64,000 nt of DNA from Candidatus Zixiibacteriota bacterium (GTDB lineage Bacteria > Zixibacteria > MSB-5A5 > WJJR01 > JAJRUJ01): positions 1 through 64,000 of the forward strand of contig JAGVQM010000036.1 in assembly GCA_020051695.1 (NCBI GenBank), given 5' to 3'. Shown here one piece after another: positions 1 to 22,944 of this stretch (the stretch's first letter is position 1; each line of letters opens with the position of its first letter). The notes below the pieces were generated by a model that was not told the DNA's origin, did not search any database, and was given only the letters and a program-made list of their open reading frames with translations. Made by a program: the position numbers and the translations under genes.

Positions 1-156
1 CAATTGGATGGCCGTGTGTATCCCGACGGTTGGAACTGTCCGTACGATCTGGGAGATTTGAACTGTGATGGCCAGATCACCCCGGTGGACCTCCAATATC
101 TGGTCAGGTACGTTTATAAGAGCCAGGATTTCATTTGTGAACCGTGCACGTGGTAG
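1..156 (+). CDS. C-terminal fragment of a secreted dockerin-repeat protein
   Basis: An open frame runs from the window edge to TAG at 154-156 and gives 51 residues; the 5' part lies outside the window. The fragment contains a calcium-loop motif DLNCDGQITPVD, which has the D-x-N-x-D-G...D spacing of a dockerin/EF-hand loop. A helix with VDLQYLVRYVY follows, and the protein ends in CEPCTW. The same architecture, with a Cys at loop position 4 and a terminal C-x-P-C-x-x, ends the M28 and M23 peptidases of this window. It is therefore probably the anchoring tail of another extracellular protein. The catalytic or structural part cannot be known from here. Confidence 0.75.
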   Translation, partial: QLDGRVYPDGWNCPYDLGDLNCDGQITPVDLQYLVRYVYKSQDFICEPCTW

Positions 157-11932: not shown

Positions 11933-14281
11933 TTACATTGAACACGGATCACAGGGCAGCGGGCCCAGCATCTTGTATACCAGATTAACCAGAAAGGTCA
12001 CATCCAGCGGGGTGGTAATTGCCGAGCAATCGACATCGCCCGCTTCCACCGGGCACACCGGGGGCTGGACCCGCGCATCCAGACTTTTGTAGACAAAATT
12101 GGCCAGAAAACTCACATCAACCGGATTGATGCTGCCGTCACCGTTGATGTCGCCCCAGACACCGCAATCACATTCGGAACAGCTGTAATACGTGACGGAA
12201 AAATCATCAACCGCCGCTTCCACTACCGAACCGCTGCCCAGGTCGGAGGCGGAAAAACGCACCTTCATGTGATTGGTCAACGGCAGATAATCGGCGGCCC
12301 AGAAAGTAACTTCATGCCAGCCGCCGGAAGCACGTTCGACCGGACCGGCGGATTCCACCGTGGTCCAGTTTTGCCCATTGTCATTGGACAGCGATGCAAC
12401 AAAGACATCATTGAACGGGTCATCGCCGAAATTATTCGAATACCAGAAGGCATAATGAATTTCCGCATCGCCGACAGTCAGGTCGAACGTAGGCGAAATC
12501 AAAAAAGTCGTGCCACCGTCGACGTCCGAATTCCCCGCCACGTTGTCGGTCAGGTAGCAGCTCCCGGAACCGTCGAAGTCGGTCGGCGGGTCGCCCCGCA
12601 CCCCGCCGCCCGCGGGTACTCCCCTTTCCCACGGGCCGTCGGTAACGTAACCGGAAACGATCCAACCGGTACTTGTTTCAAATTCATCGGCGAAAACCGG
12701 CGCCATGTCTGTGGCGATCTTCACCCGGAAGGGGTCGTCCGGTCCCGGATCAGTTATAAAGCCGTTGGTGCTTTCCTCCGCGCTGAGATAGTAGACCAGC
12801 TGATTATCACAGCCGACGGCGGGTAAAGCGGCCTCGTACACATTGCCGGAGATTTCCGTTAACGGCACGGCAGTATAGTCGCCGCCGTTCACGGCATAAA
12901 ACAATTGCCCCGAGCCGTGGACCATCGCCCCGCCCCACGCCGCGGTCAGTTCGACGGGGAATGATTCGACAACATTCGGCCCGATGATTTCGGGTACGCC
13001 GGCCGGGTAGGTGAAAATGATTGTCGGCTGGGGCACAGCCAGGACATTCACCTGGTAAGCCGTGGCCAGGGAGGCCTTGACCATGTTGGTCATATAGTCA
13101 TAATCGACATAGGTCGTGCTGTCGCGATACGTATGGTAGACGCTCGAAAAAATGTTTTCCGCGACGAACGTGACAGGATAACCCTTCTGGGAAAAAGGCC
13201 AATGGTCCGAGCCGACGCTATTGCCCTCCAGGACCCCGACCAATCCGACCAACGAATCGGCAAGGGCTTGCCATAATTCGGAAAACGTGACATCCGGGCC
13301 ATGATACAACGAGGCCATCACCGTGTTTTCATAATGGCCGATCATGTCCATGTTGAGCATATAGATGATACTGTCTCCGCGCGCCGCCGCCTCATCGGCA
13401 TAATGATACGAGCCGTATAACCCCTGTTCTTCGGCGGCGAACAGGATGAAAATAAACGTCATTTCAGTTTCGACATCCTGCAGCACTCTGGCGATTTCCA
13501 GCACGCCGGCGGTCCCAGTGCCGTTGTCGTCCGCGCCCGGCGAAGTCGAGACCGCGTCGTAGTGTGCCCCGATAACAATTTGTTGGTTGGGCCAGGTGGA
13601 TCCGACTTTGTAGGCGATAACGTTCTGGCTTTCGCCGAGACTGGTCTGGAAATTGTCGAAAACGACCGAATCGTACTCGAATTCGGCGAATTTTCCGGCG
13701 ATCCAGTCGCGGGCGGCATAAATCGAATCGGTCGCAGTATACCGGCGAAAAAACGCCTGCAACCGTTCCAGATACGATTCGAGTGAATCGCGTTCGACCC
13801 CGGCGATCAGTGTAGCCAGATCGGCAGCCGTTGTGACAGCGGATTCCCGTAATTGCGGCGCCTCAGCAAACTCAATCGCCGGCCGGCTCCGGTTAACGGG
13901 AATCAACTGATGTGATTCCAGATCGGCCGCGGACTCGGTCTGATCGACTCGATAAAGCCGCAGGTTGTCCTGCTCAAACACCAGCGGGAATAAACCAACA
14001 TTTGCCCGGTCGAGGCGGCCATCGAAGGCCAGGTCTCCAGTGCTCACTTCGGAGATAATCAAGGCCCATTTCAATTGGGTCAACAGCAGCCGTCTCGCTG
14101 CGGCTTCGTCTGCCAGCACAAGGTAACCGTCAGTCAGCCGGACCAGCGGTTCGACCCCGACAGCACGCAGACGTTGTGTATCGGCGGCGTCGCGGACTCG
14201 GACTTTATACAAATCATCGGCCTCGGCCATTGCAACCCAGCACAGACATATGGCGAGGACAGGAATCACGCGTTTCAACAT
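11933..14281 (-). CDS. Secreted M28 zinc aminopeptidase with C-terminal dockerin pair
   Basis: This 782-residue protein starts with a signal peptide (residues 1-20). After a pro-region, the M28 peptidase domain (about 185-420) shows all metal and catalytic residues: H240 in GAHYDAV, D252 in GADDNGTG, E284/E285 in AAEEQGLYG, D312 in NMDMIG and H383 in YHTYRDST. Next come an Ig-like region and a jelly-roll/MAM-like domain (about 565-700). The end holds two dockerin-type loops (GDINGDGSINPVD, GDVDCSAITTPLD) and the terminus CDPCSM. It should release N-terminal amino acids outside the cell while bound to a surface partner. ATG 14281 follows GGAG; the frame upstream to 14425 lacks signal-peptide logic. 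Confidence 0.88.
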   Translation of the reverse strand: MLKRVIPVLAICLCWVAMAEADDLYKVRVRDAADTQRLRAVGVEPLVRLTDGYLVLADEAAARRLLLTQLKWALIISEVSTGDLAFDGRLDRANVGLFPLVFEQDNLRLYRVDQTESAADLESHQLIPVNRSRPAIEFAEAPQLRESAVTTAADLATLIAGVERDSLESYLERLQAFFRRYTATDSIYAARDWIAGKFAEFEYDSVVFDNFQTSLGESQNVIAYKVGSTWPNQQIVIGAHYDAVSTSPGADDNGTGTAGVLEIARVLQDVETEMTFIFILFAAEEQGLYGSYHYADEAAARGDSIIYMLNMDMIGHYENTVMASLYHGPDVTFSELWQALADSLVGLVGVLEGNSVGSDHWPFSQKGYPVTFVAENIFSSVYHTYRDSTTYVDYDYMTNMVKASLATAYQVNVLAVPQPTIIFTYPAGVPEIIGPNVVESFPVELTAAWGGAMVHGSGQLFYAVNGGDYTAVPLTEISGNVYEAALPAVGCDNQLVYYLSAEESTNGFITDPGPDDPFRVKIATDMAPVFADEFETSTGWIVSGYVTDGPWERGVPAGGGVRGDPPTDFDGSGSCYLTDNVAGNSDVDGGTTFLISPTFDLTVGDAEIHYAFWYSNNFGDDPFNDVFVASLSNDNGQNWTTVESAGPVERASGGWHEVTFWAADYLPLTNHMKVRFSASDLGSGSVVEAAVDDFSVTYYSCSECDCGVWGDINGDGSINPVDVSFLANFVYKSLDARVQPPVCPVEAGDVDCSAITTPLDVTFLVNLVYKMLGPLPCDPCSM

Positions 14282-14351
14282 GTTGTCTCCGGCTTTGGTA
14301 TATTTCGGCAATTGCCTCAGGAAGCACCATTTCAATATTTGTTCGAACCTG

Positions 14352-15653
14352 TCAGAGACCACACGGATCGCACGGTCCCGTACCGAATGAGCGGTACACG
14401 TAATTGACGTAAAACGCAACATCAACCGGCGTCACCTGGGCACTGCAATCCCAATCGCCGTTGTCCAGCGGGCAGTTCGGCAGCGGGAGACGCGAGTCCA
14501 GCGAGCGGTAGACATAGTTGACGATGATTGTGACATCCAGAGGGTTCAATGATCCGCTGGCATCCAAATCGCAGAAACCATCACACAAGCAGGGCGGCAC
14601 ATTCTCGATAAAAACCTGCATCGAATCCATGCTGATATTGTCGGTCAGCTCCAGGTCATCCCGGTCGTAGGCGTACACGCGCACCCAATAAGGACCATTA
14701 TCAAAGTCCGTGGTCCGCCAGCAGCCGGCGGTATCGGAGGCCTCGATGACACTGTCGCCGTCGGTATTGGTGATAATAAAGTAATAATCTCGGTTGTCGT
14801 AATCGCCTTCGGTATTATAGTAGGCATCATCCTGGTAAGTCACCCCGACATTCTGCTCATAAAATAATTCCCCGGTAAACGTTAGTGCAGGGATGATCCC
14901 CGTACTCATCGTGTCATTATAAATTTCGTAGGCCAGCGCATATGGCGCCAGGCGCCAGAGTGGTTCGTTTTGTACATCATCGACCCGCGCGATAATATCG
15001 ACATCGCCGGAGATCACTGCACCGTGGTCGAAATAATCGTGCGTCCCATTCCGGCAAAACGCGAACAGGTACTCCCCCGAGCAGTGCCGAATAATCGGCG
15101 GGGTTAGGTCGACAATGCCCGCCAACTCGTCCAGCGGATTGGCGATAAAGTCCCAGTCGGCATTCCAGTACTGACCACTGCTGCGGATTTTAACAAAATG
15201 GATATGGTGGAAATCCGCAGTCGGCCAGTAGACGATGTCGCCCAGATAATCACCCTCCTCAACATAGTCGCCCGGCGCCACGGTGATCGATGACTGATCG
15301 AGGTGGGCATACAGCCAGCCATCGCATTCTCCGCTGCCGGGCGCATCGCCCATAGCCACACGCCAGTGCAAATCCGCCGAAATAGTCAGTACAGCTTTGA
15401 CCCAGCCCGAGCGGACGGCGTACACCCGCTCACCCCAGTCGGTTAAAATATCCAGCCCCGGATGGAGGTATGAATCGACCGCCGGGTTGCCGCCGTAAAA
15501 TTGGTATTCGCCATATGAATTACCAATTCGATGAGTGGGTGAAGTCCGCTCAAGCGGCCACGGAATAGCAAATAACTTGCTGTTACACAACAATAACAGT
15601 ACAGATATTGAAATTACCACTTTAATAATATTCCACTGATTTTTCAATTCCAT
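14352..15653 (-). CDS. Secreted M23 (LytM-type) metallopeptidase with C-terminal dockerin pair
   Basis: This 433-residue protein has a signal segment (about 10-29). The M23 zinc site reads H64 and D68 in HPGLDI, H117 in YAHLD and the H-x-H pair 150-152 in HHIHFVK. M23 enzymes cut peptidoglycan cross-bridges or other glycine-rich peptides. The middle has beta-rich Asp/Tyr-rich sequence. The end has two dockerin-type repeats (CDLDASGSLNPLD, GDWDCSAQVTPVD) and the terminus CDPCGL, as in the adjacent M28 gene. GGAGG directly abuts ATG 15653, so the in-frame TTG at 15647, six bases from GGAGG, may be the real start. It lies 70 bases before the M28 gene on the same strand. Confidence 0.86.
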   Translation of the reverse strand: MELKNQWNIIKVVISISVLLLLCNSKLFAIPWPLERTSPTHRIGNSYGEYQFYGGNPAVDSYLHPGLDILTDWGERVYAVRSGWVKAVLTISADLHWRVAMGDAPGSGECDGWLYAHLDQSSITVAPGDYVEEGDYLGDIVYWPTADFHHIHFVKIRSSGQYWNADWDFIANPLDELAGIVDLTPPIIRHCSGEYLFAFCRNGTHDYFDHGAVISGDVDIIARVDDVQNEPLWRLAPYALAYEIYNDTMSTGIIPALTFTGELFYEQNVGVTYQDDAYYNTEGDYDNRDYYFIITNTDGDSVIEASDTAGCWRTTDFDNGPYWVRVYAYDRDDLELTDNISMDSMQVFIENVPPCLCDGFCDLDASGSLNPLDVTIIVNYVYRSLDSRLPLPNCPLDNGDWDCSAQVTPVDVAFYVNYVYRSFGTGPCDPCGL

Positions 15654-21135: not shown

Positions 21136-22944
21136 ATGAGCAAGCACCGGGCGCAAATGGACCTCCGACATGGATTCCTGCTCATCGTGGTCTTGCCGGC
21201 GGCACTGATATGTTTGTTTAATACTGCATTTGCTGATGGCGACACCTTGCAGGTCGTCAGTACAGCGATTGAGCCGGGCGATACCGGTTCAGTGTTTATT
21301 TACATTGCCAATTCCGAGGATCTCGGCGGTTATACCATTCGTCTTGAATTCGATCCGACATGGATCAGCCCGGTCAGGAAGACCCCCGGCAATTCCGTCA
21401 TTGAGTCTGAACAGATTCGCGGTAATTTTTCCGTGTTTACCTTCAATGAAAGATCGCCGGGGGTAATCACCGGGGCCGCCGTGCCGTTTTCTTCCTCAGA
21501 GTCACTGTATCCCGGCCGAAGCGTCGCAATAAAACTATTATTCGAGGCCCGATATGATGCGCCAATTGGTTCGGTCGTCAGTCTCGTGTTCGCCAGCGAC
21601 CCGGAAGAACCTGATGCCCACAACTTGTTTTCCGAATTGAACGGGCTGTATGTGATTTACCCTGAACTGGTATCCGGCACGGTGACGATTGGTCAGACCT
21701 CTGTCTTGCGGGTATTTTGCCCGCAAGACTTGCAGGTAAATTGTGGCGACCCCACGAATCCTTTTTACACCGGTGAGGCGTATGCCAATGAGCAATCGGC
21801 CGAAATCACGTACTCCGACGACCAAGTGCCGGGATCATGTACGGGCGAGTTAACGATAACGCGCACATGGACTGCGGTTTTAGGAACAGCGGAGAAAAGT
21901 TGCACACAATTAATTGCGGTTGTTGATCATACGCCGCCGGAGCTTTCCTGTCCGGAGGATTTCACGATAGGTTTTGGCGAATCGTACGAGCCAAATGTGA
22001 CCGGATTCGCGTTTGCGGAAGACAATTGTGGCGATATTCCGGTAATTTCTCATGTCGATGATGAAATACCCGGCCACGGATTGATTAATAGGACTATTAT
22101 TCGCACATGGCAAGCCGTCGATGTTTGCGGAAACATTGCGGAATGTACCCAGCCAATTACCGAACTTGCCTATAATGTTGAATTCGCGATTTATTGCTCC
22201 GATGATATAACAATCTCATGTGATCAATCGACTGATCCTGAAAATACAGGCCGGGCGACTGCCGCGTATACGCAGTCGCTGGTAACATACTCCGACATCA
22301 CTATTGATGGCTCCTGTCCGAATGAATTTCGTATCAGACGTTTGTGGACGGCATCGTTGGATGGCACTGAAGATTCTTGCACTCAGATAATTTCAGTTGT
22401 AGATAATGATGCCCCGACAATTACCTGTCCTCCGCCCGCTCAGGCTGTTTCAGTGGACGACGCCATCCCGAGCAATACTGGTTACCCTGAAGTAACTGAC
22501 AATTGTAATGAGTCCGTACAGGTCACTTTCGAAGATCAGGTAGATACTACGACCGCTGATAGCAATTGGACGATAACCCGCACCTGGATCGCCACGGACC
22601 ATTGCGGTAACACGTCGAGTTGCGCTCAGCAAATTAACAAGGGTACCGGCGACGGTTTGGAATCCGTCGGGTACGGCCCCAATCCATTCTACAGCGGGGA
22701 CGGACGGGAAACTTGCTTTACAATAACCCTGCCGCAACCCGGCCCGCTGAGTATCTCGATGTTTGATGTCGTCGGCCGCAGGATGAAAACTATCGCGCTA
22801 GACAACGGCGCCGCCGGGACAAATCAAATGTGCTGGGACGGCCGCGACGCCGATGGGCATTTTGTGCCATCCGGGGTTTATCTTTGTCTCCTGGAGTATG
22901 GCGGGAAATCAGAGACAATAAAACTCGCAGTGATCCGGCAATAA
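21136..22944 (+). CDS. Secreted protein: cohesin-like domain, Cys-paired Ig-like repeats, FlgD/T9SS-like C terminus
   Basis: This 602-residue protein has a signal peptide (about 12-33). Residues about 35-190 read as a cohesin-type beta-sandwich: EPGDTGSVFIYIANSEDLGG, then LEFDPTWISP, and a closing GTVTIG. Four repeats of about 80-85 residues follow (about 193-505). They alternate TxTRTWxAxDxCGNxxxC and PPxxxCPxD features, like HYR-type Ig domains with conserved Cys. The C-terminal 95 residues (YGPNPF...GRRMK...WDGRDADG...GVYLC) resemble FlgD Ig-like or T9SS sorting domains. It could be a surface receptor for the dockerin proteins of this window. ATG 21136 lacks a Shine-Dalgarno; ATG 21157 is an alternative. 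Confidence 0.75.
   Translation: MSKHRAQMDLRHGFLLIVVLPAALICLFNTAFADGDTLQVVSTAIEPGDTGSVFIYIANSEDLGGYTIRLEFDPTWISPVRKTPGNSVIESEQIRGNFSVFTFNERSPGVITGAAVPFSSSESLYPGRSVAIKLLFEARYDAPIGSVVSLVFASDPEEPDAHNLFSELNGLYVIYPELVSGTVTIGQTSVLRVFCPQDLQVNCGDPTNPFYTGEAYANEQSAEITYSDDQVPGSCTGELTITRTWTAVLGTAEKSCTQLIAVVDHTPPELSCPEDFTIGFGESYEPNVTGFAFAEDNCGDIPVISHVDDEIPGHGLINRTIIRTWQAVDVCGNIAECTQPITELAYNVEFAIYCSDDITISCDQSTDPENTGRATAAYTQSLVTYSDITIDGSCPNEFRIRRLWTASLDGTEDSCTQIISVVDNDAPTITCPPPAQAVSVDDAIPSNTGYPEVTDNCNESVQVTFEDQVDTTTADSNWTITRTWIATDHCGNTSSCAQQINKGTGDGLESVGYGPNPFYSGDGRETCFTITLPQPGPLSISMFDVVGRRMKTIALDNGAAGTNQMCWDGRDADGHFVPSGVYLCLLEYGGKSETIKLAVIRQ

Follow-up and report, generated by a model that had tools for sequence, protein, structure and literature searches.

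Secreted peptidases with cysteine-rich tails

The window analysed here, a 64,000-nucleotide stretch of a Candidatus Zixiibacteriota genome, harbours two neighbouring minus-strand genes for secreted peptidases, each with a cysteine-rich C-terminal tail that we assign below to the dockerins. One of them encodes an M28-family metallopeptidase (11933-14281; PF04389, E = 2.9e-39), which also shows a weak match to choice-of-anchor J. At its longest, this open reading frame spans 11933-14425 and opens with the first possible TTG; the likelier start of the protein is the ATG at 14281, followed by a good predicted signal peptide (MLKRVIPVLAICLCWVAMAEA). The tail (11936-12172) comprises 79 amino acids with six cysteines, and the protein ends in GPLPCDPCSM. 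About 70 bp upstream of the M28 start lies the gene for an M23-family peptidase of the LytM type (14352-15653; PF01551, E = 1.4e-6), the translation of which contains the HxxxD and HxH motifs. Its tail (14355-14591, ending in GTGPCDPCGL) is 51% identical to that of the M28 protein (E = 7.8e-24). A third tail is found at the very start of the window (1-156, plus strand), where it reads QLDGRVYPDGWNCPYDLGDLNCDGQITPVDLQYLVRYVYKSQDFICEPCTW up to the stop and ends in FICEPCTW.

An earlier note on this stretch had described the three ends, as well as a cysteine at position 4 of the last calcium loop, and both observations hold (GDVDC, GDWDC and GDLNC in the three loops). It had also counted three independent proteins. 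The M28 and M23 proteins indeed carry full tails, whereas at 1-156 the contig (C17) begins in mid-tail and retains only the second half. Being half a tail, and with contig C15 opening on a near-identical end, this fragment does not represent a complete third protein. Contigs C14 and C6 break off within first halves that match, and the breaks in these four contigs show that conserved tail genes interrupt the assembly. Contig borders inside near-identical dockerin-tail genes were observed at C15:1, C14:1, C6:1, C2:1, C37:1, the ends of C34 and C19, and window position 1-156; at such borders, the assembly is interrupted by tail genes that were duplicated recently.

The tail is a large family with variable ends

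We searched the genome of the window (3.53 Mb in 43 contigs, 98.9% complete) for further copies of the tail. The M28 tail as query found 88 matches (E ≤ 1), and a profile built from 36 tails found 86 (E ≤ 0.001), so that the tail is far commoner than the window had shown. Reading the proteins from the genome stretches around these matches yielded 80 distinct ones with a stop codon. The C-[DE]-P-C-x-x terminus, which had been thought invariant, is present in its exact form in only 10 of them. A C-x-x-C lies within the last 7 residues of 37 tails and within the last 25 residues of 55. From the cysteine content of the open frames in the window (2.07%), about 0.14 of 80 proteins would be expected to end in C-x-x-C-(0-3) by chance. 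The C-[DE]-P-C-x-x terminus is thus neither fixed nor a product of chance, and what the tails have kept at their end is either Cys-x-x-Cys or one cysteine alone. The endings include CDPC, CNPC, CDGC, CVQC, CDVC, CEGC, DRCxGCP and a lone terminal cysteine, and some tails bear a cysteine-rich extension of the type CNCxPYPxxCPxFP. Such variation among homologous tails, which the earlier note had itself named as a refuting outcome, speaks against the idea that the terminus is a tag recognised by an enzyme.

By homology and predicted fold, the tail is a type I dockerin, for which cohesin binding is predicted. Two F-hand calcium loops in tandem (D-x-[DN]-x-[DS]...D), both leading into a helix, are present in the sequence, in the profile alignment and in the AlphaFold2 model. 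When the tail profile was compared with the PDB, the top 26 matches were all dockerins or dockerin-bearing proteins, and the match to 4fl4_A (E = 3.7e-8) spans both F-hands. The M28 tail alone also found 4fl4_A in a phmmer search (E = 5.3e-5). The AlphaFold2 model of the tail, built from a seven-row alignment, has a confidence score (pLDDT) of 76 and shows the two F-hand helices at residues 23-35 and 61-73; in a Foldseek search of the PDB with this model, ranks 1-32 (E < 0.4) were exclusively dockerins. For the tails of the window the Pfam model Dockerin_1 stays below its threshold (18.1 bits for the M28 protein, cut-off 22.9); of 74 tail proteins, 20 have a match to it at E < 1e-4. Positions 10-11 of the loops are Pro-Leu/Val in the Zixibacterium tails.

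Cysteines of the tail are gained and lost in pairs

The cysteines were analysed in 154 distinct aligned tails from the genome and its relatives, with p-values that take no account of kinship among paralogues. Cysteines are gained and lost pairwise, and five pairs of alignment columns are strongly coupled. The second cysteine of an N-terminal CxC goes together with a cysteine in the linker (columns 54-125; both present in 112 tails, discordant in 1 and 8, neither in 33; p = 7e-25). The first cysteine of the same CxC is coupled to the final cysteine (52-172; 116/0/21/17 in the same order; p = 1.7e-12), and the cysteine at position 4 of loop 2 to the first cysteine of the terminal CxxC (139-168; 122/9/7/16; p = 1.5e-10). 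Less common are the pair formed by the cysteine at position 4 of loop 1 and the one after helix 1 (78-115; 11/3/1/139; p = 2e-13) and a pair within the C-terminal extension (26/1/5/122; p = 2e-23). We also compared all 15 perfect matchings of the six common cysteines. The best of them joins the first N-terminal to the last cysteine, the second N-terminal to the linker cysteine and the loop-2 cysteine to the first terminal one, and it leaves 46 discordances, where the runner-up has 58. In addition, 13 tails have just two cysteines, and in all 13 these lie 24-28 residues from each other, the first in calcium loop 2 and the second among the last three residues.

From this co-variation we infer three disulfide bonds, which would link the same partners as the best matching. 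In the simplest reading, the bond between loop 2 and the C-terminus would be the minimal staple, a second bond would close a clasp between the N- and C-termini, and further staples would have been added later. As each terminal cysteine has a co-varying partner inside the domain, the terminus appears to be one half of a set of disulfide staples and not a recognition tag. The pairwise gain and loss over these tails thus favours one of the two possibilities raised in the earlier note, a disulfide-locked tail, over the enzymatically recognised one.

Cohesin modules in the same genome

Cohesin domains are the known partners of dockerins. Seven cohesin modules in the genome exceed the cut-off of PF00963. 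A lineage profile built from eleven modules matched nearly exclusively cohesins in the PDB (3l8q, E = 1.5e-8). When run on the genome, it detected 18 modules at E < 1e-4, or 21 if hits up to E ≤ 1 are counted. One protein of 1818 amino acids, encoded on contig C20, combines four cohesin modules with a C-terminal domain of the type IX secretion system (T9SS) type, an architecture that fits a scaffoldin with several cohesins and a cell anchor. Nine cohesin carriers match the T9SS type A sorting domain, including a protein of the window that lies slightly below the cut-off, and two short carriers (C25:245213 and C20:21709) have lipoprotein-type signals. The first of these two, a lipoprotein-like protein with a single cohesin (C25:245213-245626), is encoded about 2.3 kb upstream of the SprA gene (C25:247899-252803). 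With about 20 cohesin domains in the same genome, many of them on proteins predicted to be surface-anchored, the tail is probably a plug and not a new sorting tag.

The window itself encodes a candidate partner (21136-22944, plus strand). This putatively secreted protein has an N-terminal cohesin-like module, HYR domains and a T9SS-like (FlgD_ig) C-terminus (PF13860, E = 7.6e-7; PF23237, E = 9.9e-7; PF00963 sub-threshold at 17.2 bits). Its C-terminus (22678-22929, plus strand) resembles the T9SS type A sorting domain (TIGR04183, E = 5.6e-4, 21.6 bits, cut-off 23). The cohesin-like module (21238-21693, plus strand) matches the lineage profile at E = 1.2e-41, a value obtained with the module itself in the profile. 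When it was left out it still scored 44 bits; leaving out its nearest homologue as well gave 25 bits, and a profile of only seven classical modules gave 11. A single-sequence search of the PDB with this module gave no match. Judged by these profile scores, the module probably, though not certainly, belongs to the cohesins.

None of the tail proteins of this genome contains a cohesin recognisable by the lineage profile, and in relatives some proteins combine tail and cohesin (L159 and L160). An apparent cohesin protein of 24,197 amino acids in one relative (G040) turned out to be a masked stretch of N.

Tail and cohesin occur in the same genomes

We then looked at the distribution of both families in 58 members of the class, the genome of the window included. 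Of these, 52 have the tail, in 6-107 copies each, and precisely the same 52 have the lineage cohesin, in 1-23 copies; the remaining six lack both (52/0/0/6; Fisher p = 2.5e-8, phylogeny not considered). In the 52 genomes the numbers of tails and cohesins are correlated (Spearman 0.42, p = 0.002). The broader Pfam cohesin model agreed less well with the tail, but the trend pointed the same way. The six genomes without either family (G009, G010, G018, G019, G025 and G032, from families f3 and f4) all encode SprA of the T9SS, as do all 58, so that the T9SS alone does not account for the pattern. These f3 and f4 relatives offer a natural comparison for what the tail-cohesin system adds. A collection search with a narrow tail alignment gave four Zixibacteria loci, and the named relatives found by sequence were Candidatus Zixiibacteriota.

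These data bear on the alternative that the tail is merely a small calcium-binding domain for stability or spacing, and that the cohesin-like modules are unrelated beta-sandwich domains to which nothing docks. Secreted bacterial proteins do hold many EF-hand pairs without a known partner, some of the cohesin-like modules stay below the Pfam threshold, and docking of tail and cohesin is a prediction. However, such a spacer would not be expected to agree in presence and absence with the cohesin in 58 of 58 genomes, nor to follow its copy number, and the near-exclusive matches of the lineage profile to PDB cohesins and the tandem array of four modules with a T9SS-type end argue for true cohesins. 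We therefore regard this explanation as unlikely.

Cargo and export of the tail proteins

The cargo was surveyed in 74 tail proteins, taken in two halves with the 25 commonest families of each, and the counts are therefore lower bounds. At least 19 of the proteins are peptidases, comprising M28 (three), S8 (five), C1 (three), C25 (three), M14 (two), M64, M6 and M23. Among the families listed there is one glycosidase family, GH116, with a single member, and the non-peptidase cargo includes thrombospondin type 3 (TSP_3) repeats in 15 proteins, FG-GAP propellers in several and beta-helices in 4. By these family matches the tail proteins are a peptidase-rich set and do not resemble a cellulosome for plant cell walls. 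A simple heuristic found a signal peptide in 62 of the 71 tail proteins with a complete 5′ end. One secreted protein with a dockerin tail (C41:126387-126626; L065:595-2049, minus strand) is made up of WD40 repeats and strongly matches beta-propeller families of eukaryotic type (WD40, E = 8.5e-61). Another tail protein matches the model of the T9SS sortase PorU (E = 1.1e-19); the same protein set (alignment A4) includes a C25 peptidase, and the PorU match is likely to mark a gingipain-like protein.

We considered the T9SS as the direct export route of the tail proteins and rejected it, since SprA is also found in tail-less genomes and the tail occupies the C-terminal place that a T9SS domain would take. 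Many of the cargos are non-catalytic, which would suit a complex that does bind cohesin proteins but is released, periplasmic or part of a biofilm matrix instead of a digestive assembly at the cell surface. On the other hand, the carriers of the cohesins bear domains of the T9SS type; where such domains have been characterised, as established for Bacteroidetes, they anchor proteins at the outer face, and peptidases are the largest catalytic group among the tail proteins. A released or matrix complex is in our judgement improbable, slightly more so than a mere spacer.

Least credible, and in our view very improbable, is a tag function, in which a dedicated enzyme would recognise or modify the terminal C-x-P-C for sorting or processing and so fix the protein to the surface, in the manner of sortases, exosortases, myxosortase and the T9SS sortase. 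The terminal position of the motif, its recurrence across the genome on unrelated secreted cargos and the weak choice-of-anchor domains next to it would fit, but the termini vary, neither a hydrophobic segment nor a basic cluster follows the motif, every cysteine is gained and lost together with a partner in the same domain, sortase (PF04203) is absent from all 20 genomes searched, exosortases are patchy and occur without tails as tails do without them, and SprA does not track the tail. The genome encodes two exosortase-family proteins (C27:11358-12119 and C24:51308-51760), one of them full length (E = 1.7e-72).

A predicted surface assembly for protein degradation

All in all, we consider it probable that the tails are stapled type I dockerins which plug into cohesin carriers with T9SS-type or lipoprotein anchors, and that they form a cellulosome-like, protein-degrading assembly at the outer surface. 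The C-terminal dockerin is carried by about 80 proteins, at least 19 of which are peptidases and almost all of which have Sec signals. Three disulfides would staple its loops and ends, with the bond between the first N-terminal and the last cysteine closing the clasp of the two termini. The tails would dock into cohesins, most of which sit on proteins ending in a T9SS-type domain, including one with four cohesins, or on lipoproteins. Docking would tether peptidases and proteins with calcium-binding repeats to the outer surface. When calcium is scarce and peptidases are its neighbours, such a small module is probably kept folded and resistant to proteolysis by the staples. The surface attachment of secreted peptidases proposed in the earlier note would then be indirect, through the cohesin carriers and not through the terminus, and the perfect co-occurrence of tail and cohesin is consistent with it.

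Several points weigh against this interpretation. Clostridial type I dockerins differ from Pro-Leu/Val at loop positions 10-11, so that the binding face may differ from theirs. The cysteine couplings were computed without correction for the shared ancestry of paralogues, and the bond between loop 2 and the post-helix cysteine requires the post-helix segment to fold back along the helix. The cohesin-like module of the window does not reach the Pfam cut-off, and a model built from its sequence alone, with a pLDDT of only 37, is unusable. For every cohesin there are about 4-5 dockerins, and docking between the two is a prediction. Finally, the tail-less genomes are limited to f3 and f4; the co-occurrence may therefore reflect one or two losses, or could mirror a general loss of the secretome.

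More tentatively, and with somewhat less than even confidence, we propose that a mainly proteolytic cohesin-dockerin exocomplex is class-wide in this diderm phylum. Its scaffoldins would be exported by the T9SS, the bond between loop 2 and the C-terminus would have been elaborated to three, four or five bonds, and redox state and calcium would both control docking. If the surface assembly is real, most genomes of an uncultured class commit tens of secreted proteins to protein digestion at the surface, as many as large cellulosomes have, and many unannotated secreted proteins gain a function. It would also offer covalently stabilised dockerins for engineering and raise the testable question of how the dockerin-bearing cargo comes together with T9SS scaffolds beyond the outer membrane.

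Comparison with known cohesin-dockerin systems

Our search of open-licence papers found none on dockerins in Zixibacteria and nothing relevant on disulfides in dockerins. The type I dockerin of clostridial cellulosomes (PF00404; 4fl4, 1ohz and 2mte) shares with the tail the two F-hand calcium loops in a pseudo-twofold repeat, the C-terminal position on secreted enzymes and the predicted fold. In contrast, the Zixibacterium tail has six or more coupled cysteines, a terminal CxxC and Pro-Leu/Val at loop positions 10-11. Its cargo consists of peptidases instead of glycosidases, and many tails are sub-threshold for Pfam.

In Clostridium thermocellum, the double-dockerin S8 protease Clo1313_0689 (8x39 and 8x3a) is tethered by its dockerin to a cell-bound scaffoldin, and this dockerin forms an intramolecular clasp (reviewed in PMC12484212). 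It is a protease-tethering dockerin like the one predicted here, but its clasp is described in that review without mention of a disulfide, and it is a single protein within a cellulosome. The mucinolysome of Limousia is a multi-enzyme cohesin-dockerin complex that does not act on cellulose, and peptidases are mentioned in its description (PMC12997984). It differs in its host organisms, which are anaerobes of the animal gut from a different lineage, and in its substrate, mucin.

A further likeness is to the cellulosome-like complex proposed for Candidatus Stygibacter of the Cloacimonadota (PMC8542988). As presented in the sections of that paper on the complex, S8 and C25 peptidases carry C-terminal dockerins, a scaffoldin with tandem cohesins is anchored by a T9SS C-terminus, and the organism likewise belongs to an uncultured phylum; these sections do not describe disulfide staples. 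Compared with the few such proteins given there for Stygibacter, the Zixibacterium genome encodes about 80 tails and about 20 cohesin modules, with almost no glycosidases among the tail proteins, and the system is found class-wide.

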